This document shows positions 701-50,138 of a stretch of DNA of 64,000 bases, in pieces. Both the position numbers and the translations under genes were made by a program. Below the pieces are notes generated by a model that was not told where the DNA came from, ran no database searches, and was given only the letters and a program-made list of their open reading frames with translations. This DNA comes from Branchiostoma floridae (taxonomy: Eukaryota; Chordata; Leptocardii; Amphioxiformes; Branchiostomatidae). The stretch is from the NCBI RefSeq assembly GCF_000003815.2, contig NC_049987.1:7448114-7512113 (forward strand). The letters run 5' to 3'. Position 1 is the first letter of the stretch. Every line of letters begins with the position of its first letter.

Positions 701-3700
701 CTAGGACCTGTTACATACATGTACCTTTAAGAGCCAGTGAAACACCTCAATGACCAGCTGTCCAACCTCAACAACCAGATAGTTTCCCTTCAGAATTATC
801 TAGACAACCTCAACAGCCAGATATAGCTAGATACGCATGCTAGCTATAGGACAAAAAAGGTTTTGATATGAAAGGCGCCAAACATATCACAGAGCAATCT
901 CATGAGTCCATCTCTTGCCCCTTTTCAGATTTGATGCTACAAAACAACTTCTCAACAACTTATTGATGAGTAATTACCAAATTTATTCTAGTGAATACAT
1001 TTTATCTTTCTTCAACACAGATCTTCTCTTTGTTGGAGGGCAATGGTCTATAGGAGACCTGGTTAGGCAGTAGCAGGCTGGACTTATACTGTGATATCAT
1101 CATCTTGTAGTTTGGAAACATATTAGGCCCTTTATAATTTCTTGAACCACATAAGGGTCCTAACTGGTCAATTGGCTGGAAAGCTGCACTGAGGTATGCA
1201 AAACATTTTTCACAGTTTGTAAGAAGTAGTTGAGGTTTGGTAAAAGAGATAACAAGTATTAATCTGTAGTGGTAAAGCCTTGTACATTTATATCCTGTTA
1301 CTATAGCAATGAGTCAATCTTACGACAGTGATTATGCAGTTCACGATTCTGAAATTTCTACCAAATTTGCCAAATAAGCTGCCAAATATCCACTTCTTCC
1401 AGCTGAAGATATCTGCTTATTGTTGTGATTGGTGTTGTTTCAACTAAGACTTGAAAAATATGTTATTGTTGTTGTTGTTTTTTGTATAAAGTTGTCTGAT
1501 TGAATGTTCAAATCATTGGCATGATCACCTTTGTCCAGTAGGACTATCAATTAATCAATGGTTGAAATAGCAAGGAGGAATACTAGAGCCCCCTAACTGC
1601 AGTTACAAGCACTGCAGTCAAAAGGCCTGCTTGTCTTGCCTGCATCCTAAATGAATGTATTTTGCTTCAGAGTTTATTTCCAAATCTACTAATCTGTACT
1701 GACATGCTTGATTCTGAAAGCTTGCCTTTACTTTTCGTCTTCCCAATGCTGCTGTACAGATATTTAACTGGTAATATAGTTGTGTTGATAAATTGTGGAG
1801 ATAGGTCTGTGACTTTCTGTTATGCTAAAATAGATTATGTTTATATCATTTGGACAGTGCAGTAGAAAATATTGTAAGGTTTTGCCGCATGCTTTTCTTA
1901 TAAACCAGCCTCATACAATTCACACCATCGTCTTACTAAAGCATACAAATGTATGTACCCTAGGAAACATTGGTTTACATGATGTACATTTGTCACAGGC
2001 CAATCATGGACCAGTTTTTCTATGAAACCTGAGTGTCAGACCATTTTACTGTTGAAGCCTCCTTCAGTGTAAAACACTGTAAGTGCAAGCAATAACAATG
2101 ACAAAAGACTGAAATGTTTGCTAAGGTCTATCTTTGTTGTGGTTAGATGTTTTACACGTTTCCAGAGCTTCTTGCCAGATAACAACTGTTAGCAGAGTAG
2201 TCACAAAGGGAACTGCATGGCAGAGAATGATCTGCTTCTTTGAAGTGGAAAAAACAATCTACTGAAAAACAACAGACATGTACAGGCATAAGATTGGGTT
2301 CAACAGTTCTGTCCCAACAAATCCTTTTGGACATTGTGTAAAGAGCCAGTGAGAAGGTGGCCATGCAGACCATTTTGTACATTTTGTAGATATGACAGAC
2401 AGTGTAAAACTCATGGGAAATGTCATTTGGTGCTGTTAAATATCCTGACAACAATGTCAGAAATCTGGATACAGAAAAAAGATATAAAGAAAGCATGACT
2501 GCCTCACAATGTCCAGTTTCATCGAGTACTCTCAGCAGATATACTGTAACATAGCATTCTGTACCATTGTCCAATTAACTTATCTGTTCCACTACTATTA
2601 TACAGAACTGTAAACTGGACTACATGTAAACATAACGATGCCTGTAACATACAGAAGCTCACCAGTTAACTTTGTGTAATAAGTCTTGCCAGCCACGGCC
2701 AAGGGCCATTCCAGAAAAATGAGGTACAAGACAGCGTTAGAAAAGTTGACCATCTGTACATGACACCCAGTCTGTCATGTACAGGCTTTTTCTATCTAGG
2801 AATGGTCCAGCTTAGAGCTGGCAATCAGCTGCAAACACTATTTATTCCAACTTGCCTGTTCAGTATTTATTCCTGCTTGTGAGACATTGTATTAAATGTA
2901 CCCCTATGTTCAGTGCCATAACGTGCCTTCCTTTCTAAGGTCCAAGAGAATGGCAGAGTATTTTTCTAGCAAATAACTGAGAGAAAACAAATGAGGGGAA
3001 ACCTTTTTGAACTATTCTCCCCATTTCAATCAAGAAATTTTGTCGCTGTATAAGTGAATGGCAATGTATATGAAGGCAGAGACATAATTTGCATAGGCTA
3101 AAGTTCCACTATAAGTATATCTGTCAGCGTTGATATGTGTGTATGTGTATATATATGAAATTCAATATACTAACTAGTAATGGGAGATGCTATGCAACAG
3201 AAGTATAGGATATCCTGCAGCAGAGCATAGTTATAGACTTAAGCTGCTTTTCAAATCTCTCAAGGGTAGGGAATTTATCAAGCACCTTGTACCAAGAGTG
3301 TTACAGAAAAGATTATTGAAAATGCAGAGGAAAATACAGTGTCTATTGTATGTCCACAGCACCCACTGAAATTGTAATGCACCACCAGTGTAGCCATAGT
3401 CGGCTGCTAGTATAGGACAACTAGCATCAGTTGGAGTATCGTGCATATGTATGGTAGAGAATATATCAGATATTGTTAAGAACCATGCTGTACCATCATG
3501 CCACTACCATCTATTTTTCTAACATTTTGTAACATCATGTTGCATGGAGGGATAATGTTGTATGACCTGTACAAATTTGTCTGCTTCTGCAAACACTGTG
3601 AGGACAAATTTTACTGTGTTCCTTATGGTGGATTCAAAAGAGCATTCGTTCAACCAGTCACAATATGCCAATGTCAGCCTTGCCTGGCTTGATATCTCCA

Positions 3701-15879: not shown

Positions 15880-17499
15880 AGATTACGGAGAGAAGCCGCA
15901 GCAAAGCCTGCAGACCGGCACGAGCTGAGAATCGAGCTTGAAGTGTCGCCGATGGCTCCGATGTCTGGCGGATTGTAATCGGCTTGCCCTAACCCCAAAA
16001 TGGACGATCGCGTCTCTCACTTCCTGTATTGGTCAAAGCGAGGCTGGTGCGGTGACGTCACAGGCTTCAAATTTCAGCGCGTTTTCAGACGTCGACAAGA
16101 ACTTTGAGGAAAGAAAGTTTCTAACAAAGAAAAGTGAAAACTGATTAATAAAATGTATGGGGAGCATTTCTCACTGACAATTGCACAATATAACATTAAA
16201 ATGTTCAAACAAACTTAAAAGTTTTGGCGACGTCCCAATATGATCGAACAATGGACGTACGGCGTTCACAAAACCTCTGTGACATCACAATCGCGTTGAC
16301 AGCACTTGTTTGTATTTATCAAAATAGAATATGTCTTAAGAAATATTCTCTGGGTCTTAACAGGTCTAACAAGAAAGTTTTGGTGCAGTTGAATAACGGT
16401 GAAGGTTAGTCATAATTCGCTCTTTTTACCTGATCCATTCCCACTGCTAATACTGGCGTGACGGTATTGTTAGTCTCAGTTTAGCAACATATCAGCTCTG
16501 ACATCTTCAAAGTGAAAATGTGTTTTCTATGGATGAGTTGGTAAAAAGGTTCCTCTTCCTTTTTTTTCTATTAGGGGCTTGCTAGCGCCTTTTGATAAAT
16601 ACAAACTTCGTACGGGCAATTTCACCAAAATGTCCTACAGGTATAACTTATATGTAGATTGATCATTGATTTGTAGTGAATTCTCCATCTCCTTTTTCAG
16701 GTTCCTGGCACCCTTAATGAAATTCAATTTTATTGCTTAAAATCAATCCCATACATTACTTTTTACTATACCATATCTAACCCTAAAGTCCAAGCAGATC
16801 CTAGGGTGTCCAATGAACACCCCTAGGCCTAATATCCAAGCAGATCCTACGGTAGCATAAGACAGTATCAAAAACTGTGCATCAAAGGGTTGTAGCCTGC
16901 CTAGGAGTGTGCATTGGCTACCGAAGGAACTATTTATCATCTTATACTACCGTAGGATCTGCTTGGAGATTGGTCCTTGGTCGGCTACACTTCTTTGCCA
17001 GCTTTTGATACTATCTTATGCTACAATAGGATCTGCTTGGAGATTAATCTAAACTATCATCCCTAAACTACAAGTAACGATCTACCCCTCTGCATAGTCA
17101 CCTTGGGGGGAAGACGGGAAAAGGGCACCGCCGTCTATTTTGATTCACCCCGTTATGGGGTCTACCCCTCTCATGTTGCGACCTTTACCGCCCACATTTG
17201 CCATCTGCCATGCATCTACAGCCTTTCCCTGCCCCGTGTCCTGTGCATAATACCATACATTAGGGTCTACACTGTCGCAAAAGTCTCTCAACAATCTTCA
17301 AAATGTTGAGAAGAAAACTTGCGAACGTGTAGCGAGTAAAAATACCGTCTAGCTTATAACTGAATGTTTTGGTTTCATTGTTGAAGTTGGATGTGTTACT
17401 GTGTAGGTTCACGGCACCCCTACCTGCGTGAGTTGATGGTTCACCCCCCGTGTTAAGGGCACTGTCCTGCGCAGGAGGGCCGAGGAGTCGTCTGCCATC
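15880..17499. promoter_or_regulatory. Divergent intergenic region between SH3BGR-like and MTX2
   Basis: This 1.6-kb interval separates the two start codons, so it must hold both 5' UTRs and promoters unless there are distant non-coding exons. CpG-bearing sequence is concentrated at 15880-16100 and 17400-17499, next to each start. Between them, at about 16790-17050, are inverted copies of CCAAGCAGATCCTA, a MITE-like array. I see no clear TATA box. Confidence 0.5.
16786..17050. mobile_element. Nested MITE-like inverted repeats (CCAAGCAGATCCTA)
   Basis: CCAAGCAGATCCTA occurs twice directly (about 16789 and 16840), and its complement TAGGATCTGCTTGG occurs at about 16952 and 17027. Inner arms CATAAGACAGTATCAAAA and TTTTGATACTATCTTATG are also complementary. 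A short relative lies at 39416-39498. This looks like one element inserted in or fused to another. Confidence 0.7.
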
Positions 17500-19099
17500 A
17501 TGCCTGCCTTCGTGTCCGAAGCGGCGGTGTCACACAACGCACGTAAGTACTAAGTAAACGTTACCAGTCCTGGCTAACGACAAGAACAACATTATCCCAG
17601 GCAGTTAGTGCTGGCAACAGAGCTGTGACTTGTGGATAACCTGGACAGTGGACTGAGTTATAGAACTCATGGATGACGCCATGTCCCCTGTGCTGTCGCA
17701 AGGTCGAATCACAAGACACCACTTAACTTAAGAGCAGTCCCACAATTTCATCCCAAACGTTCAGTTATTAAGTAGCAAACAACCGAGGCATTACACACAT
17801 ATGTGTTCCCTTAAACGACTATAAAAGATATAGATGCATTGTCATAAACAAGATGAAGATGTTGTGAAATACAATATGGACGGCTAGACCGGCCACTAAC
17901 TTTCTATGGAGAACCAAAGAAACATGCCCATTTGCAGTCCATGTACCATCAGTATATGGCGACCCGCTCCCACAGTGCCGAAACGTCAGGACTCGTCATA
18001 CCGACACAACGTGTAGGTGCCACATGAGTATCTGAAAAACACAGACCGGTAGCCAGCCTGCATGAGTGAACCAATGTCTAGATTGAGAGTTTGTTTTGAA
18101 ACTTGACCTTGACTCAGACTATAGCCAACCCCGCCTCCTATTGACATTCCTCAAGCATACAGTCTGGGTACATAGCGGCTCTACCTAATTACCGAATTGG
18201 CATGTACGCCCACAAAGCACACAAAGGAAAACATATGTCTGACATCCTGGCAGGTCTGATCTGTGGCTAGCTCCAGTGCGGACGGTCACGTCTAACAGCA
18301 CAACACCCACGCTGTGTTAGTGATATAGTTTTACTAGAAATGCAATATTTGCAAGCAAATACATAATGTTTACCTTTCCATGGTCTACCCTGACAAATTA
18401 ATGCTCTGTTTAATTTTACTCTAGCATATAAGTTTACCACCCCCCCAAACCTGTCCTGCCACTTGCTACATAATGTTATCGAACATCACAGGGTGTCTGC
18501 TACATCTCCAGGGACTATGTTGACAGTCGTCTGGTCCAGGTCACTGAACTATTTGTTTGGGGAAGACGAAGGATACACAGAGATAAAACAACATGTTCCC
18601 TTTCTATTCCGCGAAGGTGAACCTGGTTAAAAAGAATTCTCTTATATCCTATATTCTACCAACCTGATGAAACTATTTTCGGAAATGATTAAAACCAACG
18701 TTACGGGAATACGTTATGAACGTGATGATCATTCCACTCTTTTTGAAAATATAAGTTTTCCTTTGTTATGTTGGCAGCATATATCGATCCACAATGGCCG
18801 CGCGGTGTGCTGCTCTACCAGCCTCTTCCAGGTAGTGTCCTTTCTCCAATCTGATGACTCTGATCTAGATAAATATCAAATGGAGATAAGTGAATTCTCT
18901 TTTTTATTCCTGCATACTTTCAACTTTGGGACAGGTTGGCTTTGTTTGTTTATACATGTAATTATTATTATTTTCTTTTAATTTTTTTCCTTCCGTAGAT
19001 TCACAGATGACACTTAATGACAACGCCAACTGTCTGGCTGTCAAAGTAAGACGATTATATACTGACGTTAAGTTTACTTTTATGTTGTTAGTACCGATA

Positions 19100-19140
<41 letters not shown>

Positions 19141-22100
19141 AAGTCATACTATACGCATGACCGGAAGAAAGGTGACAGAGGCTCGTGCATAGAATACAGC
19201 AATCGTCAACCATTTATTGAAAAGGAGGTGCTGTCTTGCCCTGCTTGTGTTACACTATAATTTCTGTTGTCAATTAACACGGCCATGCTGTGAAAGCTCA
19301 AAACTAGTAAACCATGATCGACTATAATGTGACTCACAAAGATCTCATCCTTTACGAAATGTTGCTACACGACACCTTTGGGATAGGTTTATCACTTCAG
19401 ATTTGATACTTGAAAATTACAATTGTGTACCTTATGTTATACGTTACTAGACTCTGCTACACATGAACGACCTGGACTTCGAAGTGGCACCGAGGACGAA
19501 TGCCGAGGATATGTCGCCTACAGGTATAGTTCCTATTGACCATAAAGGCATTAACTATCAACTTTGGCTTTGTACTTTATGCTTGTGCCTATACTTTAGT
19601 ACATAACCATACTATACATACATACAAGATTGCGCGAAGTTACACATTTACATACCGTTACAGGGGGCCATTCTTTCTTCACTGGCTTGTCTTTATTACT
19701 TGACTCACAAGGCACTGTCTTGAAAAATTACATAACAGGCAGCATTCGAATATTCTCGAATCATGCCCCAAACTACTAGAATGTCAACAGCAGAAAACCA
19801 ACAATTCAATATGAAAGTAAACTTTTTAGTGCTCTTACTATACACCAGTCTATATAAATAATGAACGCTCCCTCACACCTGCCGTTTTCCCGACAGGTAA
19901 GGTCCCGTTCCTGCGGGCGGAGGAACACCTGGTGGCGGAGTGGGAGCCCATCATGGCGTTTGTCAACGCCAAGGTAAGAACAAGGACAATACTTGACAAG
20001 ACAGTTAAAGGTAGGCGCATAGTGCGTTTACGAAGCCGTAGGTGCAATGGGTAGGTATCCGCTGTCTAGGGAGGGCGGAACGCGTCCCTAACAGATCCTT
20101 CATTGCACCTCCCCAACCTAAGTCAGGTGCCCAGCGGAGTAAGAAAAGCTATGTTAAGTGCCTTTCCCAACGACACACCACCATTTGATCTCTTATCCAT
20201 TGGCATAGCCAAGTACTTGTAGAACATTTGAGATATTGACAAGTTCGACCTAAGTAGTATCACAAGTTTATGTATCAAAGACAGCATCTTCTTTTAGTCA
20301 TATTGACAAATACATACGGCTTGAGAAAAAAAACGAGCAAGAAAGTGATGATTGCTTTTTTAATCGTTCGACAGAAGTACAATCTGGGGAGCCATCTGGA
20401 GTTGTGGCAGAAGGCTGAGATGAAAGCCTACATGTCGATGGTGGAGAATGTTCTCAAACCGGCAGAGGTACGATCTGGGGTACTGAGTGTTTAGTGGGGA
20501 GGTCAACTTGCCGGACTGAACAGTTTTAACTTTAAAAAGCTAAGCCATGATAGCATGAAGGCTGCCATTCGACATAACACGTGACCGTAATACTACTATA
20601 GAAAAACTAAACTTAAGCTGACCAAAACTTCAAGTAAATTGGACTTATCCCACATTTTCGGCCGACACCGTCAACCTTGTTCAAGGAATGGACCCGTCTA
20701 CTGCATCTTCCGGTGTAATAGACGCGTCACTGGGAACTTTCATGCAAGGACCCCTTGAGTAGTTGCTATTTGGCGTTGACCCTAATACTGTATAATTTCC
20801 CCGGCGTAAAAGGTACACATGTGCCGGACGCATGGTTGAGATTGTCATGTTCATGTCAATGCGAGGCAAACGGATTACATACCTTATTGATGATTAACAT
20901 GTTTTCATCCCTCTACAGCTGTGGTCATCATGGTGTGACGAAGAAACGGCATATCAGGTAGGCGCTTAACATATTGGCCATTTGACGCGTGTAATGATAC
21001 TTTAATCGTGTACAACGTATCAAGGGACAATTTTTCATGTAATATGAGTGTCAGTTTCCACTAAAACACAGTTCGCCAGTACATGTATTTCAAAAGCTGG
21101 ATGATTCTCTTTGAACACAGTTCAGCACCAAGGACGGGGCATGTTGCAAAAGTAATTCCTGTACTTTTATGTTCACGGTTTTCACGGTGTAAACCTGACA
21201 CCTGTTAGGTATCATTACGTATAACAATTAATTCGCCGACTTTTTTTACACGCAACTGCTGACACCTTGAACATTTAGTTCCGAGAACAAGTTAAATTTT
21301 CTCAGACAGTGAAAGTTTGGCACGTAGAAGACGTGTATGCGTGCGTGTGTGTATGAGGTAGAGAGAGAGAAAGAGAGGGAGAAGAGCGTTCAAGTCTAGG
21401 TTCAAAATCATGGACATCTGCGACGCCCTATCCGCATTACCTTCGAAAAATCACGGTTTGTCCCCACATGACCAACCCCTCCCACTCCCTCCAGGTGACG
21501 AAGCCCCGTTACGGGTCGCCCTACCCCTGGCCGTTGAACAGTCTGTTGGCACGGAGGAAACAGCGGGCTGTCTGGACCATCATGACGGCGCTGGGCTGGA
21601 GGGACAAGACTGCGCAGCAGGTACGAGTTGAATGTTTCAGGTCGAACGTCTAGCGCCAACCACTTTGCTCACATGACCGCATGCCTAGTTAGCCTTGTTG
21701 TCATTCTGGTTGGCTAGGGATGGTACTCAGCCTGTGATACAGTCCCTCCTAGCATCGGTTCGTTTATTTGGGAATAATTGTTGTTACTAGCCCCAACTAG
21801 GCTCCACATGTCGCTGGAAAATAGTAGAATTTGGTCAAATAGACAGACAGCACTCGCTGTACGTTTGACTGCCTAAACTTCTCTGGCATGTTATCTGTCT
21901 ATTTGGTCATTTTCAACTAGGGGCATGTGGAGCCTGGCAGAGGCTAGTTGTCATCACAATTCCCGACTGTGGCGACACTAACCCACCAGTACTGAAATAA
22001 TTCGGTATCACTATCGTGGAGGACTGCGATTCTATGGTTTTGTAGCATGTTCTCATTAAGTATTTTGTTTCCTGTCAGGTGTATGACGAGGTGAACCGTT

Positions 22101-24449
22101 GTTGCCTGGCCCTGTCCAACAGACTCGGCAGCAGTAACTACTTCTTTGGACACCAGTAAGTGCCCTAAATATTCAAGTTTCCCTCGTTCCTAACTTCGGG
22201 AAGCAGGTTATTCTTTCGGTTGTGTGCGTTTGTGTGTGTTCGTGTGATAGCACGAAAAGGTCTGGATTTATTGTCCGAAGTTGATATTTGGTTTGTGAGT
22301 AGGTGTTGATTACACCTCAGAATTATTAAATTTTGGTGCCCCTAGCCCCTTGTTATGGTACTCCAATGGAATGAACCTGTTTTTGCATGATTTAGTTATA
22401 GAAAATATGGTCACCAAGTTGGAGTGGTTGATAACTCTTGTTTTCCAAGCAGATATTTACTGCTAACATACATGTGTAGTTGTGTACGTATCTTCTGTAT
22501 CAACCGTGCTCCCTGTGTGTTTCAGTCAACCAAACAAAGCCATCAACGGAACAAAGACCCCTCTAAAGAGACAGCAAGCTGAGGACAAGGCACAAGAACC
22601 TGAGTCGGAAAGCCAACAGAAAGCGCCGTCTGATGGAAACAAGATAAAAAGCAAGCTGGGCGGAAGGCGAAGGTATGTCATCCTGTAACACACGTACAGC
22701 CCCCTTTGACATGCCTTTTACCTTCGTGAAACATTGAGGTATTGTTTTAGTTGTGTCTGTCTGTTTCCGCATACTTGTGCTCGGTACCCTCTGGATGGAT
22801 TGTAATACGTGGATAGGCGTGTGGAGGTCAAGGTCGAGTTTAGCTCTTCCACCGGCGACTTTCATTGGCACTGCAGCAAAACTTCCGATTTGTGTTTTTT
22901 TGTACTGGACGTTCTAGGGTTTTGATTTTTCAGTGGCAGATACTAATAGCTTTTGATGTCAGAAAGAAGCGTAGATTTGGGCTCCTACTACAGCAGTTGT
23001 CTACATCTCCATCATGGGTTTCATTACGTATTCTTTTCTTTTTAATGCAGATATAGTAGGTAAAATAAGAACATACACTAACAGGTGTCAAATAAGTCGA
23101 CGTTTTTGCAGTCGTAGTTAAATTTCCATATTTTGATTGTCTCTTAGATGGCCCAAAATATACGTGGACAAGCAGAAGTCTGTCGAGGAGATCGAGTTCG
23201 TTGAGAAGACTTACGAGGAGGACGTGGACGGCATCGTGACGGAGTCTGTCTCCACGTCAATCATCGAGCAGAGGCAGGACAAGAAGGAGACAACAGGAGG
23301 AACCGCCGACTCTCTCCGGGCCGCGCGCAACAGAACGGGATCGTCGGCAGGTGGAATCCAGAGGGAGCTGTGGAGGAAAGGAACAACTCCTCAGAGGAGA
23401 ACGCGTCCCGTGTCGGCCGGGAAAACCAGATCAACTCTGCCGTCAAGGCGGAGAAAGAGTTGAAGGCACAGACGGACCAGAAGTTTGACGGCAACACGCC
23501 ACAGCAGAATGGTTCAGTCATCAATAAAGATGGTAACAAAGATGGTGGCGACGGGAAGGGTTTGGGAGCCCAGAAAACGGCCAACGGCTCTGTGTCGGCT
23601 CGGCAGAACGGCAGATACAGCCCGCAGAGCAGTAGGGACGTGTTCGCTATGGTACATCAGGAGGAGAGGGATGATGGCACCAAGTAAGTTATCTGTGGCT
23701 AGACGTTAAGCTTGTCTCGCCTTAGCATGAAAGTTCATCTAAGTAGGTAGAATTCATTATAAAGAGATAAACTGTTTTCCAACTAAAGAATTGGACTCAC
23801 TCAGTCTTCTTCAGCTGAGTGTGGAGATGGCTGGGTGAGTCAGTAGAACATTTTGATCCAATCGCTTTGGACACGTGACTTTCTGCACACGTGACGTCAG
23901 CAATCGGTCAAATGTCGTCGGAAGTCGAAATCACCACCTTCCCGGTCTTTCCTCGCCAATTCTGGAAGAAGAGATAAACGGATTTATAAATACCGTTTTG
24001 GTCGAAGCATCTTGTCGTTTTGTCACTGAAACTTGTGTTTTATGAAATGAAATGTATTCAATTAACTGTCTGGAAAAAAAAAACTATGCTTCTTGCTGAT
24101 GGCAAAGGAGTATATTTTAATAGACGCTTCTCTTCGTTTTTTAACAATACCCACTTCACACCACTTACATCAACGGGCGTGCTCGTCTTTCTGAAGCACA
24201 AAGCTGTACGCAACTTAGTTATCTTTGTATTCCATACGAAAAGTGATTTTGTTGACGATTTTGATGTATCTTTGCCCCACCAGGCCCACCGAGCTGGACG
24301 CGTTAGTGTTCGGCCACCTCCACTCACTCCTGACGCCTGACCTGAGCCACCCCCGACTGCAGCAAGCCGTCCGGCAGCACGACAACCTCGCCGCATTCTG
24401 TCACAGGGTCGCCACTAAATACTTCAGCCACAAGCGCGACACGCTGTAG
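17500..24449 (+). CDS. MTX2: Metaxin 2, mitochondrial outer-membrane SAM-complex subunit
   Basis: Ten core exons: 17500-17542, 18778-18831, 18999-19045, 19451-19523, 19897-19973, 20375-20467, 20919-20957, 21495-21620, 22079-22155 and 24284-24449 (TAG). They sum to 795 nt, 264 residues, almost the length of human MTX2. All have GT-AG sites and matching phases. Diagnostic segments are NAEDMSPTGKVPFLRAEEHL (thioredoxin-like N-domain), QKAEMKAYMSMVENVL, RYGSPYPWPLNSLLA, YFFGHQ and PTELDALVFGHL (GST-C-like domain). Metaxins work on the cytosolic face of the mitochondrial outer membrane, with SAM50 and MTX1, in beta-barrel insertion. Two more in-phase exons lie between core exons 9 and 12 (see 22526-22672 and 23148-23683); skipping both restores the canonical YFFGHQ-PTELDAL junction. 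A MITE sits 25 bp beyond the stop. Confidence 0.95.
19101..19137. repeat. (TA)n microsatellite
   Basis: Uninterrupted TA dinucleotides just downstream of the MTX2 exon 3 donor (intron 3). Confidence 0.95.
21784..21953. mobile_element. Foldback MITE in MTX2 intron 8
   Basis: The left arm ACTAGCCCCAACTAGGCTCC, followed by ACATG, is complementary to the right arm around CATGTGGAGCCTGGCAGAGG followed by CTAGTTGT. Inner arms GGTCAAATAGACAGA and TCTGTCTATTTGGTC are complementary too. Confidence 0.7.
22526..22672 (+). CDS. MTX2: MTX2 candidate cassette exon 10 (49 codons)
   Basis: A 147-nt exon with acceptor TTTCAG and donor GTATGT, both boundaries phase 2. It can be included or skipped without changing the frame. 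It follows YFFGHQ and encodes a hydrophilic segment (QPNKAINGTKTPLKRQQ, then QEPESESQQK, ending in GGRRR). Vertebrate metaxin 2 has nothing here. I read it as an optional or lineage-specific disordered insert; there is no transcript evidence in the window itself. Confidence 0.65.
23148..23683 (+). CDS. MTX2: MTX2 candidate cassette exon 11, with apparent 1-nt frame break
   Basis: The acceptor CTCTTAG enters in phase 2 and reads WPKIYVDKQKSVEEIEFVEK and onward, an acidic segment. The donor AAGTAAGT leaves in phase 2 only if the frame used at the 3' end (EERNNSSEENASRVGRENQ to QEERDDGTK) is the real one. The two halves are in different frames and the exon is 536 nt, one short of a symmetric 537. 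The simplest reading is one base missing from the assembly, or a real frameshift, somewhere around 23330-23370. A 44-nt GT-AG interval (23351-23394) would also restore the frame but is very short for an intron. The composition (Glu, Lys, Asn, Gly, Ser) suggests a disordered insert of about 179 residues. Confidence 0.6.
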
Positions 24450-24474
24450 CTGGGAACACTTTACGTACCACTGG

Positions 24475-24719
24475 TACTCTCCAAGCAGAAGTTAGGCTCC
24501 GGCTGTTTAATTGACGTTTTTAGGCGTTTTATGGGGCTTTCCATTTTGTACTGAAAAACAGCCGTCTAACAACAACAGAGTCTAACATCTAGTAGACTCC
24601 GGCTGTTTTTTTACGTTAGGCCGCGAGACATAAAGAAAATAGTACAAAATGGAAACCCGATAAAAAAGCCTAAAGAAACGTCAAAAACAGGCGGACTCTA
24701 ACCTCTGCTTGGAGAGTAC
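24475..24719. mobile_element. MITE of the CTCCAAGCAGAGG family just past the MTX2 stop
   Basis: The ends are TACTCTCCAAGCAGAAGTTA and TAACCTCTGCTTGGAGAGTA, with ACCACTGG repeated at 24467-24474 and 24720-24727 (8 bp, as in hAT insertions). Almost the whole 245 bp is self-complementary. The position, 25 bp after the stop, makes it likely to be part of the MTX2 3' UTR. Confidence 0.85.
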
Positions 24720-25478: not shown

Positions 25479-25578
25479 NNNNNNNNNNNNNNNNNNNNNN
25501 NNNNNNNNNNNNNNNNNNNNNNNNNNNNNNNNNNNNNNNNNNNNNNNNNNNNNNNNNNNNNNNNNNNNNNNNNNNNNN
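25479..25578. other. Assembly gap (100 N)
   Basis: Exactly 100 Ns, a conventional placeholder for a gap of unknown size. The sequence resumes inside the duplicated TTTC-containing repeat, so the gap probably arose from that repeat. Confidence 0.95.
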
Positions 25579-26564: not shown

Positions 26565-28035
26565 AACTAGAAAGGCCGGTATTTGCTTAGGAGCAAATTC
26601 AGCTATTTTCACTCCGCTCTCCCCTTTATGCATAAATGAACTTTTCCAAAATTGAACTTGAAAAATCCAATGTGAGTACTGTACGGTAATCAAACTTTTA
26701 TTTCTTTATTACAACACGCACACAGCATGCTAATGTTTCACACATTAACAAAGCAAGCACCGTTTTACTTCAAGAAAAAAAAATTATGTCACAAACGGAA
26801 ATTTTCTACAGATGCAACACGTTATGCGACCCTAAACGTTGGTATTACGTACCCACAGCAGACAATAGCGTGGTTATGATTAAAGTTTTCCTGCTTATTT
26901 ACACAAGGCAAGGGCAATTACTGCACTTATTCAAGGTTGTCACAAGCATAACTAATCTTCATACAAGCAGACCTCTCCAAACAAACTGCACTACACTTTT
27001 AACTCTTTACCAAGATATGCTTATTAGCCGTTTTTAGCGAAGTGCAATTTAAAAAAAATCCAATTGGATATCATGGCTGCACTGCAATTACATTATCATT
27101 ACAAATACATATAAATGTATGCACATTGTATTCAGACAAAAAGGATCGCATTCTGTTTTTATACTTAGAGTTAATCAGCTAATACATTATATTGATGAAC
27201 AAAGCTAATTAGCGACTGTATGTTTGCACGGAGTCTGTTTTGCATATCTAAATGTTTTGCATGCTTTTTGTCTGAAAAAAGGATGCAGCAATTGCAGTTA
27301 TCATACGTCTGTTATAAACTTAACGTCCCATTTATTTTCCACATAAACTAATCAGTTTATGATTATCTAATTATTCTGATTAACTGTTTGTAGTACATGT
27401 GCATTACTAAATTACACAGCATATACCATGACGTGGTGTCTGAAAAGTCATAAAAACTTATTCATGTCTGTCATGAAATACAATGTTTGAACTCATGGTT
27501 GGTATAATAATATCTCTAATTGTCACTTAGTTTAATAGTTACAATATTGTCCCAAATAGCCTAATCATACATAAAGCTGGTGTTTCTGTCACAGTAACAC
27601 TTCTTGTACGTGACTTTGCTATCCTCTCCTTGGTGTCTGTTGATGCCACCTTTGTAGCCAGTTGACTATTGTGTTCTCTGACAGGCCAGACTTTGTGGAA
27701 TTAGTTGAGTTCGAGCACCCGACCAATAATGAATTTAGCACTGTCAAATTGACACCCTCTATCAAGGCACAACCCCACCTGTCTGCACAACAGTCCTGGT
27801 GGTGTATCCTCTTCCTCCAGTAGAAAATAGAATAGAATACAATAATTAGTATTTCCTTTGTGTAATTTCATGTACTGCCACCCAGAGTAAAAGGAAGATC
27901 CTTTTTGTTTGTTGATTAGAAAAAAAGCCACACCTGATTACATATTCTTGTACAACCAACCTGAATGGACAATTCACAACATAGTGTAACGTTTGTACTA
28001 GTAGATTTGCCCTTGAAAATCTGTACTATCATATA
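26565..28035 (+). repeat. Inverted repeat B, left arm (about 1.47 kb)
   Basis: The reverse complement of this arm is at 29238-30711. It starts AACTAGAAAGGCCGGTATTT and ends CTGTACTATCATATA. Short open frames inside (26786-27037 plus; 27701-27931 minus) occur unchanged in the other arm but resemble no protein I know. The match is close to perfect with a few small differences, so the duplication is recent or represents an assembly effect. Confidence 0.9.
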
Positions 28036-29370: not shown

Positions 29371-30711
29371 AGGATCTTCCTTTTACTCTGGGTGGCAGTA
29401 CATGAAATTACACAAAGGAAATACTAATTATTGTATTCTATTCTATTTTCTACTGGAGGAAGAGGATACACCACCAGGACTGTTGTGCAGACAGGTGGGG
29501 TTGTGCCTTGATAGAGGGTGTCAATTTGACAGTGCTAAATTCATTATTGGTCGGGTGCTCGAACTCAACTAAATTCCACAAAGTCTGGCCTGTCAGAGAA
29601 CACAATAGTCAACTGGCTACAAAGGTGGCATCAACAGACACCAAGGAGAGGATAGCAAAGTCACGTACAAGAAGTGTTACTGTGACAGAAACACCAGCTT
29701 TATGTATGATTAGGCTATTTGGGACAATATTGTAACTATTAAACTAAGTGACAATTAGAGATATTATTATACCAACCATGAGTTCAAACATTGTATTTCA
29801 TGACAGACATGAATAAGTTTTTATGACTTTTCAGACACCACGTCATGGTATATGCTGTGGAATTTAGTAATGCACATGTACTTCAAACAGTTAATCAGAA
29901 TAATTAGATAATCATAACTCGATTAGTTTATGTGGAAAATAAATGGGACGTTAAGTTTATAACAGACGTATGATAACTGCAATTGCTGCATCCTTTTTTC
30001 AGACAAAAAGCATGCAAAACATTTAGATATGCAAAACAGACTCCGTGCAAACATACAGTCGCTAATTAGCTTTGTTCATCAATATAATGTATTAGCTGAT
30101 TAACTCTAAGTATAAAAACAGAATGCGATCCTTTTTGTCTGAATACAATGTGCATACATTTATATGTATTTGTAATGATAATGTAATTGCAGTGCAGCCA
30201 TGATATCCAATTGGATTTTTTTTTAAATTGCACTTCGCTAAAAACGGCTAATAAGCATATCTTGGTAAAGAGTTAAAAGTGTAGTGCAGTTTGTTTGGAG
30301 AGGTCTGCTTGTATGAAGATTAGTTATGCTTGTGACAACCTTGAATAAGTGCAGTAATTGCCCTTGCCTTGTGTAAATAAGCAGGAAAACTTTAATCATA
30401 ACCACGCTATTGTCTGCTGTGGGTACGTAATACCAACGTTTAGGGTCGCATAACGTGTTGCATCTGTAGAAAATTTCCGTTTGTGACATAATTTTTTTTT
30501 CTTGAAGTAAAACGGTGCTTGCTTTGTTAATGTGTGAAACATTAGCATGCTGTGTGCGTGTTGTAATAAAGAAATAAAAGTTTGATTACCGTACAGTACT
30601 CACATTGGATTTTTCAAGTTCAATTTTGGAAAAGTTCATTTATGCATAAAGGGGAGAGCGGAGTGAAAATAGCTGAATTTGCTCCTAAGCAAATACCGGC
30701 CTTTCTAGTTA
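29238..30711 (-). repeat. Inverted repeat B, right arm
   Basis: Reverse complement of 26565-28035. It starts TATATGATAGTACAG and ends CCGGCCTTTCTAGTTA. With the left arm it makes a palindrome spanning about 4.1 kb with a 1.2-kb centre. I could not read an unambiguous target-site duplication at the outer edges. Confidence 0.9.
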
Positions 30712-32275: not shown

Positions 32276-35072
32276 GTCACACCGGCACAGAGTTATTCTT
32301 GTATAATGATAAATACGTTAGTCTGCGCTTTCAAAATAGGTATCTTAAGACGGGTCACAATGGATCACTGAACAGCGCTAGCAAACTTGAGCTTGTTTAT
32401 CATCCTTCACCGAGCCATGCAAATTTTCTTGCTGGTTCAAGTCTGTCGTTTGCAAAGCTAAGCGCGCTAGAATGTCAGTCTACAAAAATAAAAGAAAAAG
32501 AGACAGCGGCCCATGGCGACTTGTGTGTTAGGGACCGCTCTGATCAATGGGGAGTATTTTAGTACATTGAACAACTCAACTGAAGAATGGTAATTCATTG
32601 GATATGGCACTTAACGATGACTTACAATAATACACGTACTTCAAAACTGTAAAGCCATACAATGCAAACTTCCGTCAAGTCCCAGTCTCCCTTCCAAAAT
32701 GCCATTAGCAATGACAACGGCGGGTAACGTTGACAAGCTGTCCGAACTGTACACGTGTACGTAGTAAGAACATTATCGGCTGTTTTCAGCCTCACTGCCA
32801 ATTGCAAAGTCAGGCATACCTTTGAAGGTAAGCACATCTACCATGATTGTGGCATTAGGCGTCTTTATTGGTCCACAGGAATCGCTCAATCATCGATTTG
32901 GTGACGTTGTTCTCTGTTACTGGGTAGTGTTGGGGAAACGTCACGAAATCAAACAACGGGCCGTCAGCTCGAAACAAAGGTTGTGTTTGGATAGGGACAC
33001 GTCATGGCCCTCTACACACGGGTCAGCAGGTAGAGAGCTTTTTACTCATGCACAGAGGACCAGGCATGAACCGGAAACTACGGGCTCTTAAGGGGGTTCG
33101 TAATACCCAGGGTGAGAGGTGGAGTTCTCGTAGCCTAGCCATTAGGGTGGCGGCTCGATAATTTGAAGTATTTTCTTGGGCAGAATATGATAATCATAAG
33201 TTAACGCGTAGATAACCTGCAATGTCACAGTGTGCAATGTCATTTCGTGTCCCTCAAACTGGTCATGCGTAAGTCAATGATTGGATAAATTTTGGAAACA
33301 GTCATCGACGAAAGTTTTTAAGGTGGTGGATGTTACCTGAAACGTCTGACCGTTTCCAAAATCTATCACATTTCTTGAGTAAATGCTACCTTGCGTGCTA
33401 GTATCTTATTACCTGGATGTCTAACTTTCATCGACGTAGAACAAGGCATGTTGTGTTAATGACGACAATCCAGATACATCCAGACCCCTCTCACAACCTC
33501 CGCACTTGAAGAGTCAAAATGGTGGCTTGTTGATAGCGACGCTGGTGGTCGCCGTGCACAGATCTCCAACATAACTATTAGTATTACATAAGCATATCAG
33601 GAGACCATGGTAATACTAAAAGTACCTTCGCTATGGGGCTGGCACTGATGGCCAACAAGGATGTAGCTTCGCGATTCGATGTTCTCATCGGATTACATGG
33701 TACAAGGTACGTCCATTCATAGCCTTAACAACACAAAAGGCCGATTTGTGGGTCATTATTACCCATTAAATACATGCCAGTTGTCGATACGTTTAGAATG
33801 GTATAATTGTAGCATTGTGTGAAATAGCGGGCTGTGGTTGAAGCTTGTGTGTCGGATTTTTTGGTAGTTTAGGGGCACGTTCTAAGTACGCCTGGCTGAG
33901 CTGGAAAAATGCTAGCCTGTTGAAGACAGGTGTGTAAACGTTCTACAGTGACGTTTGAATGGAGTAAGTACGCAGGGCAGGCAAACACAAGATGTTAGAT
34001 TCCACTAATGTTATTCAAGTGTGAATACGGGAGTATCATAGCAACATAATCTGCCAAGAGAAAGCGAATTTAAGCTTTTCGATTCGACAATGCTTACTTA
34101 CAAATCAACAAGAAGATGGTAGTATGATCCGTGAATGTGTCGTCATTTAGATGGTTAGCTTTCACTGCATGGTAAGAACAGCTAATCAAACGTACCAAAA
34201 AAGATGGAGGACAAATCCAGACGCACACATTCGCTTTGAAATACCTAAAATATGCAAAATTTTCGCAATTTCTATAAGAGGGCTCTTGACTCGAGCTGGT
34301 AACGGTAATGTTTATGAGCCAGTGCTTTTAGGCACAATAGAAGAGAGGCTCTTAGTCGTTCCACTTTAGGGCATTAGCAACACAACTTCAGTTCCGTTTG
34401 TTTCCTTTTCGCTGTTACCGACCGGAAAATGGAGGGCAGTTCATTCAAGTTTTCAACTAAGTTATGTTTGCTTTGGCTTCATGGTTATATGCGACTGAAA
34501 CTATGTGTAGTTTTTATAGAGTGGACTTACACTAGAAAACAAATAGTGTTTCAGCCAAATATGAAGCGTAATCCTGTTGTATTCGGTGATAGCTGGAACG
34601 TGTGTTTGCAAAAACCTTCTTTGCGTCACCCGAAGTAAAACAGCTTGCCGAAACCGTGGCAAACATTTCAATAAAAGAATACTAAGTTATAAGAAACAAA
34701 TCTAGTACTCCCAATCTTCCTGTAACCACTGAATAAATTGACACCTTGCTTCGCCAAATAGCAATTACTCAAGAAACTAAATTATGCTTTTCCAAAATCA
34801 TATCCAGTTGAGTAATTGCTATTTGACGTATCTGATAAAGTGGATATCTGACCTTCATTGACTGCTTGCTTGTCTTATTTCAGCGAGGGCTATGCGTGGA
34901 GACATCGGGTTTCCAATGGCAACTTCAGATAAAATGTGGAAAGCAATTCTGGATCTGGGATATTGACAGACAGTAGGCCTGCAAACCCAAAGGATACCAA
35001 GTGGCCAAAAGGTGGAAGTAGAAAGTTAGCACTTTGTTCACGTCGACATAACATCTTGTGGGCACTCGAACA

Positions 35073-36869
35073 ATGACGTCACATCAGAAGCCGAGGGTGG
35101 TTCGATACCTGGGAACCCGTCCGACCGGAACGCAGCCGAACCCGCCGAGGAAACCCGAGTCCCTCCGACTGCAGAAGCTGAAGTCGGGCAGCCAGTCAGA
35201 CTACATCGAGACTGTCACCGAGGAGAGTTCCAGCATGTCGTCCGCGTCACGTAACCAGTCGGAGGACGAAGCCACGGCCGACGGCGGGAACGCAGGAACC
35301 ACTGGCGATGGTACGAAATCCTTCAAGGTGCTGAGTGCTAAGGGACAACCTCGCCAGCCGTATGCGCTGCCGAAAACTAGGAAAAAGGAGGGACGAACCG
35401 ACAAGCCGAGGCCCCAAACCCACCCACCTGAGGTCGTCCAACGCCTTCTACAGGAGAGGGCTGTGAAAATAACGGACTTGAAGAGCCAGGTGAAGTACTT
35501 GAGGGGGAAAATAATCGACGTAGACCACGAGAACGAGCTCTTGAGAGGAGTATTAAAGAAACAAAAGGCAGCTCTGACAAATTTTGAGTCGCCCGACAAA
35601 TACTTCGCCAGGATGATGCAGCAACACAAAGACGATGTCAGAGACTTGAAGGGAGAGATCAGGGAGGAGAACAAGGGACGTGACTTGGAGAAGGAGATCA
35701 ACGAGAAGAGCCAGCAACTGTGGGAGACAAACACCGAGCTCGGCCGCTTGGAACAGCTCATCGAGAAACAACTGCCGGAGACGGAGGAAGGGCAGAGGAA
35801 GCTAGCCAGTGCTGAAGACAAGTTACTCAGGACAACTCAGAAACTATCCACCCTGGAGAATGAAATAGAGGCGGCTACCAACTTTGGCAGGAAGAGGTAT
35901 GTAGCTGAGGTGATAAAACACAGGGAAACTAGAGAATCTGTGACGATAATGGAGGAGGAATGCGAGAAGATTAGGCTGAGAATACGTGAGCGCGAAAAGG
36001 AGCTGGAAATTAGGAACATCTATCATCAAAGGATACAACAGGCGCGGAACGGCGTTACCAAGGCGACCACCACAGACGACCTGAGGGAACACGCCAGAAT
36101 ATGGCGGGAAGCCGAGGAAAAGGAACGCAGAGAAGCAGAGGAAAGGAAGAGAAGGGAAGAAAAGAAACGGAAAGAGCTAGAAGAAATTAAACGTTTGGAA
36201 GAAGTCAAAAGACAAGCTGAGATCGAAAAGAAGAGACAGGCACAAGAGCTAGAGAGGAAGCGAGAAGAGGAAAGACTGAAACATGAACAGGAAGAGAAGG
36301 AAAGAATGGAAAGAGAACTCAGGGAACTGGAAGAGAGAGAGCGAAAGGAAAGAGAGAAGAAAACAAGAGAGGAGCGAAGAAGGAGGGAGAGAGCGGAGAG
36401 AGACGCGCGGGAACGGAAACGACGAGAAGATGAAAGAATGAAGAAACTAAAAGCCAAACAACGAGCCGAAGAACAGGCAAGGCTGGCGCGGGAGGAGGCC
36501 GAGAGGAAAGCTAAGGAAGAAGCTGAAAGGAAGGCTCAGGCAGAGGCTGAGAGAAAGGCAAGGGAGGAGGCCGAGAGACGTGCCCGAGAGGAAGCTGAGA
36601 GGCAAGCCCAAGAGGAGGCTGAGAGGAAGGCCCGCGAAGAAGCAGAGCGACAGGCCCGAGAGGAGGCCGAGGAAAAGGTTAGGTATCTCCAAGCGCAGCT
36701 GAGAAGGGTCGAGACTTTGATAAAGGAAAAGACAGAAGAGTCGCTGAAGAAGAAAAAACAACACAAAACCAAACGCACGTTCCAAAACTTGCACCACGGA
36801 ATGTCCTCACAAGGACCCCTCTCAACAAGTAGCGGGACCTCGAACATTGTTCGGAACAAGACAAAGTAA
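35073..36869 (+). CDS. LCA5-like: Lebercilin-like coiled-coil protein (LCA5/LCA5L family), intronless
   Basis: One uninterrupted frame of 598 codons. The ATG at 35073 is the first after an in-frame TAA at 35049. Residues 1-115 are basic and serine-rich. Residues about 118-322 form a coiled coil with features of the lebercilin domain: KITDLKSQVKYLRGKI, NELLRGVLKKQKAAL, HKDDVRDLK, KLASAEDKL and the closing REREKELEIRNIYHQRI, which matches the family's K/R-E-K-E-L-E-I/D-NIY block. Residues about 345-560 are almost pure Glu, Arg, Lys and Ala, a likely single alpha-helix, including eight copies of an AREEAERK-type octad (472-535). Lebercilin localises to cilia and centrosomes and interacts with intraflagellar transport proteins. 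Vertebrate LCA5 genes have several coding exons, so the lack of introns is unusual. The highly charged tail could also suggest a different coiled-coil protein, but the NIY block argues for lebercilin. Confidence 0.83.
   Translation: MTSHQKPRVVRYLGTRPTGTQPNPPRKPESLRLQKLKSGSQSDYIETVTEESSSMSSASRNQSEDEATADGGNAGTTGDGTKSFKVLSAKGQPRQPYALPKTRKKEGRTDKPRPQTHPPEVVQRLLQERAVKITDLKSQVKYLRGKIIDVDHENELLRGVLKKQKAALTNFESPDKYFARMMQQHKDDVRDLKGEIREENKGRDLEKEINEKSQQLWETNTELGRLEQLIEKQLPETEEGQRKLASAEDKLLRTTQKLSTLENEIEAATNFGRKRYVAEVIKHRETRESVTIMEEECEKIRLRIREREKELEIRNIYHQRIQQARNGVTKATTTDDLREHARIWREAEEKERREAEERKRREEKKRKELEEIKRLEEVKRQAEIEKKRQAQELERKREEERLKHEQEEKERMERELRELEERERKEREKKTREERRRRERAERDARERKRREDERMKKLKAKQRAEEQARLAREEAERKAKEEAERKAQAEAERKAREEAERRAREEAERQAQEEAERKAREEAERQAREEAEEKVRYLQAQLRRVETLIKEKTEESLKKKKQHKTKRTFQNLHHGMSSQGPLSTSSGTSNIVRNKTK
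36486..36677 (+). repeat. 24-bp coding minisatellite, eight units, in the LCA5-like gene
   Basis: Eight consecutive 24-bp units encode variants of AREEAERK (AKEEAERK, AQAEAERK, AREEAERR, AREEAERQ and others). Third positions vary (GAGGCC, GAAGCT, GAGGCT), so the array is old enough to have collected silent changes or is under selection for protein sequence. Confidence 0.9.
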
Positions 36870-38974
36870 ATTATTTCATAGGTAGGATACCTTGTGGAAA
36901 CTAAGAACGTTGTTTGCCAATACCAAGAATTCAAATGAAGAGGAGAAAACACGAGGATTGCCTTCATGACTTAAACATCCAGTGGAAAATCCTTCACAAT
37001 GTGTGGATATCTGGACAGATAGCTGCAGCGGTCTCACGCGTTTCCACCTACTACACATTACCTTCCAGAATGGTTTGTAATATTTGTGTTAGATACATAG
37101 CATACATATATATTGCAGACATGACACATACAGTTAGGAATGATATGACCCTGTGAATACAGTAGGTACATGTACTTGTATCTGCTATAGCGTGCCAACA
37201 TAGCATCCAGAATAGCGTCAAGTCGCTTTTGTGAGGTCAGTAATGGTGTAACCAGGCAACACGAAAGTAAAAGTAGCTGCTTGAGTGAAGTGAAGATATG
37301 TATTGAATTGCAATAACGTCAAGCATGTCAAAAGCAGCTTTTCAAATCTCTAGAAATACAATAGGTGGCACAAGGGCCATGTGTAAGAGTCCATGTACGT
37401 TAAGTTACCATGACGTTTACTTTGACATGAAAGAATGTCACCGACATTTGTATTCCTGTATCATTTGTGTGTATGTTTACTCCATCGTTGAGGTGACCAG
37501 GAACAGAGGTATGTAGTTAAGATTTAATGAGGTTCTGGGTAGCCTTGCTTCATTCTCCAGTGATATGTAGGTCTACTACTTGTACGAGTCAATAGACAAC
37601 AGACCTGGCTGTCATTGGTATTTGTTCCCAAGTCAGATTGGAAATCATTAATTTTTCTGCTGAAGGAACACGAAACTTTGTGTCTCAAAACATTTTGTTA
37701 GCATTTAAAACGGGTGAAATTTTTTTGGTCTCCTCTTTTAGCTCCGTTGTCCACCTCCTGAGCATCTACATTGTAAACATCTGTCTGCTTCTCTTATATG
37801 AAGCCTAGGTTGGTGCAAATGTAACATTAAAGCTGTTTCTTCCAAAATCCATCCACAAAAAGTGCCAAACAGAATATGCTTGTCATCATAGTTTAATTGT
37901 GCTTGGGCCACAATGAATAAGGATACAAAAAAAAGTCATGTCTTTTTTTACTTTATCAATGTACTATAGATTGCATTGTTTGCAATCTCAATACATAAAA
38001 TTAAACTAATTAAATCAAATTATAGATTAAAAAAAGTAACAACTAATGTATACTACAAAGGTGTTCCTAAATGTGTACATGTACCTTATACTACAAAGGT
38101 GTTCCTAAATGTGTACCTGTACAAATGTACCTTGATTATATTTGTTATCTTCCTTTTTTCCAGTAAGTCTTATGCAAAAAAACAAAACAAATAAGAGAAT
38201 ATATGTAAATGAATAAATAAGTCTTAACTTTTAGACTTCCATAACATCTGTATCAAAAATACTTTGCATGATAAATACTTTGCATCTCTGGGCAGGATTT
38301 CTCCGAGGAATCAGCCTACAAACTTCTCATATCAAAACTAACAAAATCTTCTCTTTGTCACTCCTTTTTGTAACTTACTGCCGGTATTTATCTAACGCTA
38401 CTTAACCTTCATCCGCAGGGTAACCTATATCTGTTGTTTATAAAAGCAGGGTAATTTGGGATATGAAGTAGGCGGACCATGTTTTTAAACTGCTGTATTT
38501 TGAAAATATTGCAACTTGAAACCATCGTCCGTCGACTTGATATCCATACGCAACCTGCTTCAAAACAACGGAGATAGGTTACTCCACGGATATAGGTGAA
38601 CTAGCGTTATATTGTAAGACAAAGCAAAAAAAATTCTTAATCTTTGGCCATGACTGGAACTACCAGTATTCTCACATATACTGTGGTTAATAATTTTGGT
38701 TGCTACTTGACATAGTCTTGCATCTTTTACCATAATATGCAACTCATACATACATGTAGTAGCTCCTTAGTCAAACATAACTCAAGTTGAAACAAAATTA
38801 ATGATGCAACAAAAGGTTGAAGCCTACAGTATTGCCAAGTCAAAACAGGTGAGGAAACAGTCATATGTTACTTTGGAATGCTGATTCATATCAAAAAGTT
38901 GCTTCCATTGAAGATAAATCTTTCCTCATCATCAAAAAGGAGACTGGAACAGAAGACTCATGTATCTGCAGTTC
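36870..38974. other. Non-coding stretch between converging genes
   Basis: It holds the presumed 3' UTRs of the LCA5-like gene (plus) and the ankyrin-MYND gene (minus). A 42-bp direct duplication around ATACTACAAAGGTGTTCC lies at about 38050-38125. No other feature is supported. Confidence 0.5.
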
Positions 38975-48760: not shown

Positions 48761-50138
48761 CTTGGAACTGTTGAAACAGCAAAGACCATGACGTGATTTA
48801 ATTTGAATCCAATATATGTGTACACATTAACTACTAATCACACAATTTAGAAGTTGGATTGTAAATCATTAAACATTGTGTGAGAAGCACAGCACAGATG
48901 CAAAACACAACAAGATAAAAGATAGCTTTATTGGATGTCACAGTGTTGGCCACTGAATTAAAAACCAATTTACAATGTTTAAAACCTCTATAACAGGTGT
49001 GCATCAAATATAGGAACACAACCTTATGCCATGAAATCCAGAACACAACTGAGAGAACTGAATGGTCAGTCCTGTTCAATATATTAATATCTACAAAGTT
49101 ACAACATGTATGTTCTACCGTTCTATCCACTCTGTCCATTATAATTGTAATACTCTATTTCTAACAAAAATGCTTAGGGTTACAGTGATTTAGGGTTTCA
49201 CCATGGTCAATATTGACTGACAGTGGCCATATATAAAAGCACTGTCCCAAAAATGATGTTAATTCAATAATTGCATCCTCCGTGTAGTAATGAATAATGG
49301 GGCTCACTATATCACATATTTCATATTACTTCTTACGGGTCTAACATAACTTTTGAACTACACAATCTTTCCATGACGTGCATAAACCTGCCAAAGTCAT
49401 CAGTCATTGTTCACCTGTGACCACAGGGAGCCTGTGGTAATTATGAAATGAAGTTCAAAATTGAGTAATCAAATTTGCTCATAATAAAAACTAGACACCA
49501 CCTAACATTCAGATGGTGAACTGCAGTTGGTTAGAAAATCTAAATTCTAACATCTATTAATGCAAATCTCTTGCTATTGAGGCGATATATGACAGTTCTG
49601 CGATATTGTAGATGGTGAACCACCAAACACAACAGCCCGGTATTACAGGTGGTAGAGCTGGGCAATTAGAAATGTGTCCTTGTACATGAATCTAGGCCGA
49701 CTTTCCCCAAGCTAGATGTTTGCTGTTGCCACCCAATGTCATTAATTTTGTTGCACACAGGCCTTGAAGTTTTCATTTGTCTGGTGAGATTGAATGTGTC
49801 CTCAACATTATATTTATGACTGTGTCTTCAACATTTAGCAGTTACGTTATTGCAGAAAAGCAGGATGAACGTTAGTATGGCAATGATAATGACAATGGGT
49901 GGAGTGTAGAAGATGCGTGTTAAGAATTTTTAAGGTCACCAGTTGAGGTTCAATCTTTAACTCTATCAGGTACAACTATCATGTTGGTTACATCATTACA
50001 GTCTAACCAAAGAGGTTAAATTAATCTCCTTAGTATAACTGAAGACCTACATGTACACTGTATATGAGGATCATTGTATATTGTTCAAACACTTAACTGA
50101 TGATCATACATCTTTTTGTATCAACAAGCAAGCACTGC
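48761..50138. other. Upstream flank of the ankyrin-MYND gene, otherwise non-coding
   Basis: It holds the 5' UTR and presumably the promoter of the minus-strand ankyrin-MYND gene. An AG acceptor-like site TTTCAACAG just upstream of the ATG suggests a separate 5' non-coding exon. I see no other feature. Confidence 0.4.

Follow-up and report, generated by a model that had tools for sequence, protein, structure and literature searches.

Metaxin 2 (MTX2)/Sam35 is a subunit of the SAM complex with a GST-like fold, and its Tom37, GST_N_4 and GST_C_6 domains are common to other metaxins. Two further kinds of described system are relevant to the gene treated here: lineage-specific cassette exons that encode a disordered segment, and poison exons, whose inclusion leads through a premature stop to decay of the mRNA. 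The usual limit for nonsense-mediated decay is a distance of 50-55 nt from the stop to the last exon junction. A fourth comparison is with the ankyrin of the lancelet Branchiostoma floridae, for which two long homologous exons have been described (PMC5135030).

In this study, we analyse an MTX2-like gene of B. floridae that lies in a stretch of 64,000 nt (C9:7448114-7512113, C numbers denoting contigs), which is called the window throughout. The genome searched for relatives amounts to 513 Mb in 431 contigs. The original prediction was that the last intron of this gene holds two cassette exons which, when included, insert a large loop into an otherwise normal and very conserved protein. We find two exon-like segments in the predicted places, the second of which is coding-like in two reading frames in turn, and a second MTX2 gene elsewhere in the genome.

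Results

The MTX2-like gene and its last intron

With exons 10 and 11 both left out, the window gene has an intact 264-residue frame of 795 nt in 10 exons, as predicted (Table 1). The spliced protein passes the Pfam cut-offs of Tom37, GST_N_4 and GST_C_6 (E 5.9e-28, 1.1e-26 and 1.2e-23), and the solved fungal Sam35 chains 6wuh, 9nk6 and 6wuj align to its residues 39-80 (E 5.5e-5 to 1.6e-4). The junction of exons 9 and 12 falls inside the GST_C_6 match (residues 190-252), directly upstream of PTELDA. The extra segments do interrupt the GST-C region (PF17171), as had been claimed. From the general GST fold, the junction site is presumably a loop that precedes a helix; the Sam35 alignment near the junction (FFG-t-ERPGSFDA) agrees with this, though by itself it is not significant.

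Table 1. Window coordinates of the MTX2-like gene and of the features in its last intron
Feature	Position	Strand	Description
MTX2-like gene, core coding exons	17500-24449	+	10 exons, 795 nt
Coding exons 1-9	17500-17542, 18778-18831, 18999-19045, 19451-19523, 19897-19973, 20375-20467, 20919-20957, 21495-21620, 22079-22155	+	from exon table, translation and Pfam matches
End of exon 9	22155	+	exit phase 2, after YFFGH
Intron between exons 9 and 10	22156-22525	+	dispersed repeat at about 22221-22440
Exon 10	22526-22672	+	147 nt, phase 2-2, symmetric, open
Intron between exons 10 and 11	22673-23147	+	dispersed repeat at about 22716-22987
Exon 11	23148-23683	+	536 nt; phase-2 entry in frame A, correct exit phase in frame B
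Frame A part of exon 11	about 23149-23333	+	WPKIYVD...VEEIEFVEKTYEED...; resembles a stretch of a giant ankyrin exon
Frame B part of exon 11	about 23334-23683	+	open up to the donor, in phase with exon 12
Likely frame-switch interval	23287-23379	+	from base composition and codon choice
Possible shorter exon 11	23351-23683	+	333 nt, open, symmetric, in phase; weak alternative acceptor (-1.6)
TGA ending the MTX2 frame on inclusion of exon 11	23461-23463	+	220 nt upstream of the exon 11/12 junction
Intron between exons 11 and 12	23684-24283	+	dispersed repeat at about 23722-23947
Exon 12, last coding exon	24284-24449	+	begins PTELDALVFGHL..., ends at the stop

The interval 22156-24283, to which the extra exons had been assigned, is exactly the last intron of the gene and is in phase 2, exon 9 ending at 22155 and exon 12 starting at 24284. 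It contains two exon-like segments bounded by GT-AG sites, and the exon table confirms that both are entered in phase 2, as was proposed. A transposon-derived exon would be expected to recur in the genome; among the 40 of 574 candidates scored, none of the 41 non-self repeat matches overlaps exon 10 or 11, all being in the three introns.

The predicted phase-2 exit holds for exon 10, which if included alone adds 49 residues and keeps the MTX2 frame; it fails for exon 11. Because the 536 nt of exon 11 are not divisible by 3, the MTX2 frame is not preserved, and inclusion of both exons would shorten the protein rather than lengthen it. Read from the MTX2 frame, exon 11 meets a TGA, and exon 12 would be misread; the addition of one base to exon 11, or the loss of two, would bring both of its ends into MTX2 phase. 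Exons 10 and 11 together measure 683 nt, or 227.67 codons, and the predicted insert of about 228 residues would therefore require a frame change within exon 11. An in-frame isoform of 228 residues is thus not supported by the present sequence. The predicted character of the insert does stand: in a reading that joins frames A and B the insert comes out as hydrophilic (mean -1.38), and its Uversky H of 0.347, below the boundary of 0.415, places it on the side of disorder. Pieces of the insert searched separately against Pfam gave no domain above cut-off (OSR1_C, E 0.11, is below it), and a 54-residue stretch gave no match among PDB sequences.

Directly 3' of the end of MTX2 is a run of N at about 25479-25578, which is probably an assembly gap. 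The window also holds, at 35052-36869, an open frame of 605 codons that contains a lebercilin domain (PF15619, E 5.6e-24), and an inverted duplication in which an identical 115-codon open frame occurs at 26690-27037 (+) and 30238-30585 (-).

Splice signals

Splice sites were scored with a model trained on 16 donors and 16 acceptors from both MTX2 genes of the genome (the second is described below); these sites are also the ones that it scores, and their values are favoured accordingly. The sites of exons 10 and 11 had been called good. All are indeed GT-AG, and the donors are ordinary (7.8 for exon 10 and 9.5 for exon 11, against 6.5-11.4 for the MTX2 donors), but the acceptors are weak, with scores of 1.5 and 1.8 in a range of 1.3-12.6; only 2 of the 16 MTX2 acceptors are weaker. 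Such acceptors suit optional use and prove nothing. On the + strand of the 64 kb there are two open phase-2 exons of 120-700 nt whose sites are no worse than those of exon 10, which is itself one of the two; the - strand has five. Exon 10 taken alone could therefore be due to chance.

Coding signal and frame switch in exon 11

The coding signal of exon 11 was measured with a base-composition model trained on a small set, the MTX2 exons and the lebercilin open frame of the window. A model with one switch of frame (composition by codon position) scores 27.6 bits, against -9.3 for frame A alone and -5.5 for frame B alone, and the best reverse-strand frame reaches 8.1. This score is unmatched in 1000 shuffles (maximum 13.0) and in 698 non-coding windows of 536 nt (best 20.6). 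The latter, 351 on the + and 347 on the - strand, overlap, being taken at a step of 134, and were drawn from the sequence outside 17400-24500, 34900-37100, 45700-49300 and pieces that hold N. GC content by codon position is 0.52/0.31/0.80 in frame A (23148-23310) and 0.59/0.45/0.70 in frame B (23311-23683), compared with 0.59/0.41/0.74 in the MTX2 exons. The coding-like character of exon 11, with one frame switch, is thus well beyond chance. Reading frame A and then frame B leaves no stop in the exon; exons 9 and 10 are in phase with frame A, exon 12 with frame B.

The switch within exon 11 is well supported, its exact place less so. By composition the optimum is at 23290, with 23287-23333 lying within 2 bits. 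Synonymous codon choice favours frame A at the start of the exon in all three trainings used, which differ further downstream (23311-23683). With training on MTX2 only, frame B scores 24.5 vs 8.2 for frame A and the best switch is at 23287-23289; with lebercilin added, the two are level (15.8 for B vs 15.0 for A) and the best switch is at 23377-23379; with ankyrin added, A leads by 15.5 vs 6.9 despite one stop, and the best switch is at about 23460. The codon endings of ankyrin differ from those of MTX2, third-position GC being 0.31 vs 0.74. A short TC repeat (ctctctcc) occurs near 23310-23317, and short TC repeats are frequent sites of small insertions and deletions. Ribosomal -1 frameshifting was considered and is unsupported, as no XXXYYYZ heptamer is in frame between 23148 and 23462 of exon 11 (two occur in other frames).

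The coding signal of exon 10 is poor. Its open frame scores -1.5 bits in base composition, the other two frames being lower, and in codon choice a frame with two stops beats the open one in the ankyrin-added training (9.3 vs 4.9) as well as in the two others (5.7 vs -6.0 and 9.9 vs 4.4).

A short similarity to a giant ankyrin exon

When the first 105 residues of the insert (exon 10 and frame A) were compared with the genome, the best match beyond self was on C3 (E 0.0068), followed by one on C17 (E 0.2). A 46-residue query, cut after the C3 match was known, gave E 0.0017 on C3 and 2.7 on C9. The C3 match (RRRWPK-YVD...EE..EF..K.YEED) is 60% identical over 30 aligned columns, and its score of 38.5 bits exceeds the maximum of 26.9 obtained from 200 shuffles over the same 60 kb. 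It sits in a 4732-codon open frame that belongs to an ankyrin gene, with ankyrin-repeat and ZU5-like exons recognized by eye upstream. Two arginines of exon 10 and the split codon open the match, which therefore just spans the exon 10/11 junction and lends mild support to that splice.

The relationship does not extend further. A pattern built from the ankyrin-like sequences occurs four times in two giant exons. A three-copy repeat stretch of the second of these was compared with the genome; its matches were itself, giant exon 1 (E 4.7) and a stretch of C4 (E 6.5), with exon 11 not among them. The frame B part of exon 11 has no relative in the genome at E <=10. The match is too short for the insert to be called a piece of ankyrin. 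A resemblance of the end of exon 11 (QSSKEIF) to the ankyrin locus lies between stops and outside the long open frames and was dropped as chance. A genome search with a short DNA pattern, which gave 186 matches vs 103 for the reversed pattern and hits in eight unrelated loci, was not used. The giant ankyrin open frames themselves, of 4732, 1134 and 2685 codons at C3:18952217-18982119, appear by eye to consist largely of short LTPEETAAILEAAKAAGRP-like repeats.

A second MTX2 gene

A genome search with the 264-residue window protein found a second MTX2 gene, on C16. It was compared from exon 3 to the last exon; exons 1 and 2 were looked for at the locus and not found. With a provisional human MTX2 sequence as reference, the C16 copy is identical at 139 of 233 positions (60%) and the window gene at 118 of 230 (51%), while window and C16 proteins share 116 of 230. 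All three sequences agree at 100 of the 230 sites. Where just two of them agree, the pair is C16 and human in 38 cases, window and human in 18, and window and C16 in 16. On the sequences so compared, the window gene is the more divergent copy; the site counts give no date for the duplication.

At the corresponding junction the C16 gene, as judged by eye, also has an intron in phase 2. The 40 kb around it contain no significant match to the insert, the best (E 1.4) having a stop inside and being distant from the junction. The original prediction had leaned on the window gene being a normal MTX2, a very conserved protein. With a second copy that lies nearer to the provisional human MTX2 sequence and shows nothing significantly similar to the insert, this argument becomes weaker for the window gene, and the description of that gene as the normal, very conserved MTX2 is not supported. 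In the titles and abstracts of open-licence literature, no lancelet MTX2 duplicate or isoform was found among the matches listed.

Two peculiarities of the C16 gene may be recorded here. It has two candidate last coding exons (C16:10743265-10743420 and 10744733-10744888, about 272-430 and 1734-1900 of locus L033) with the sequences PTELDAVMFGHL... and PTELDALVFGHL... and with acceptors that both fit the phase-2 junction; dN is 0.22 and dS 1.20 over 52 codons, which suggests constraint on both. In addition, the end of its exon 4 (RTNAEHMSPSG) is followed by three further copies, spaced by roughly 160, 80 and 80 bases (about 2681-3037 of locus L034).

Discussion

There are multiple possible scenarios for the extra exons of the window gene. 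We judge it somewhat better than an even chance that the gene is a divergent MTX2 copy whose last intron gained two coding exons, of which one has recently suffered a frame break. What the sequence shows is the layout and lengths of the exons, the stop, the coding signal in two frames and the second MTX2 copy; a gain of exons 10 and 11 as coding exons in a diverged paralog is plausible. The phase-2 intron that would have received them is common to the C16 copy, and we take the direction of change to be gain in the window gene rather than loss from the C16 gene. The two exons would encode a hydrophilic, disorder-prone insert, and an mRNA that skips both would give an ordinary 264-residue metaxin-2-like protein. 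Exon 11 would once have measured 534 or 537 nt, the inclusion mRNA then being in frame throughout, and in this form the insert would make a long loop before PTELDA in the GST-C domain.

The break itself would be a change of 1 or 2 nt, probably recent and probably within 23287-23379. Because coding-like composition continues past it in the frame of exon 12, it is most likely a recent allele of a highly polymorphic genome, or else a sequence error. Heterozygosity in B. floridae is about 3% (PMC12862219), which makes a frame-breaking allele plausible. With exon 11 as sequenced, inclusion would give a truncated reading and probably removal by nonsense-mediated decay; the productive mRNAs would be the skip form and, if used, the form with exon 10 alone. 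The inclusion isoform is putative. Points against our preferred explanation are the poor coding signal of exon 10, the weakness of both acceptors and, for the later part of exon 11, the dependence of the codon-choice result on the training set.

Alternatively, the sequence may be correct and the break fixed, exon 11 acting as a poison exon whose inclusion causes a premature stop and mRNA decay and leaves less of this MTX2 copy. The TGA lies beyond the 50-55 nt limit and the weak acceptors suit optional use; however, exon 11 stays coding-like after the stop, in the very frame that fits exon 12, for which a poison exon has no need, and we regard this scenario as unlikely. A fixed break could also mean that the exons are dead. 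In that scenario the insert was formerly translated and is now decaying in the window copy, with skipping as the sole productive path, as would be consistent with the break, the weak acceptors and the position of the gene as the more divergent of two copies. A long-dead exon, however, should carry more disabling changes, whereas a single one explains all 683 nt here and opens a new frame without a later stop. This possibility, too, we think an unlikely one.

It is quite improbable that exons 10 and 11 belong to a separate transcript nested in the intron, or that exon 10 is a chance occurrence and exon 11 alone is real. Exon 10 by itself is near chance, and one AATAAA is present in exon 11, at 23523. 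Against this, both the entry and the exit frames fit MTX2, the ankyrin-like match just spans the exon 10/11 junction, and the sequence between exons 11 and 12 has no AATAAA or ATTAAA. Very improbable is a different splicing inside exon 11, which would preserve the frame through the 333-nt form or through a small internal intron, would make the 536-nt form the unproductive one and would need no mutation. In its favour, the 333-nt form is symmetric and open and fits the MTX2 phase, and 230 of the 265 internal GT-AG pairs at least 40 nt apart give back an open frame. However, acceptor 23351 scores lower than all 16 MTX2 acceptors, and the 333-nt form accounts for neither the frame A signal nor the ankyrin-like stretch. 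A small internal intron was set aside since the sole internal donor with a score above 4 is 23350 (7.2), the acceptors after it, listed to 23500, being at or below -7.2 apart from 23351.

The explanation that we prefer, exon gain followed by a recent break, has different implications depending on whether an in-frame form exists. If it does, a SAM-type subunit would tolerate a disordered arm of 228 residues in its GST-C fold after duplication, and the arm would directly probe which part of the metaxin 2 surface is free. A more elaborate version, to which we attach the slimmest of probabilities, is that the duplicated gene gained a disordered arm sharing a motif with giant ankyrin, that the isoform with the arm could connect the mitochondrial SAM/metaxin complex with a partner in the cytoskeleton, and that intact and broken alleles are segregating. 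If there is no in-frame form, the exons would have been gained in a diverged paralog and later broken, and the locus would be a caution against calling exon pairs in-frame without counting bases. The presence of two MTX2 genes in the genome affects any comparative use of lancelet MTX2.

Finally, the locus can be compared with the systems described at the outset. With the giant exon of lancelet ankyrin (C3, 4732-residue open frame), the insert shares a motif of about 30 residues; it differs in lacking any extended match, the frame B part being unmatched. As in poison exon systems, exon 11 has an early stop whose distance from the last junction (220 nt) exceeds 55 nt, whereas its downstream coding frame, which fits exon 12, sets it apart from them. 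The pair of exons resembles a lineage-specific cassette for a disordered segment in its GT-AG sites, outer phase 2 and hydrophilic content, with the difference that exon 11 is asymmetric here and inclusion is putative. With metaxin 2/Sam35, the window gene shares the domains and, with the C16 copy, the phase-2 last intron; it is distinguished by its lower identity to human MTX2 and by the two extra exon-like segments.
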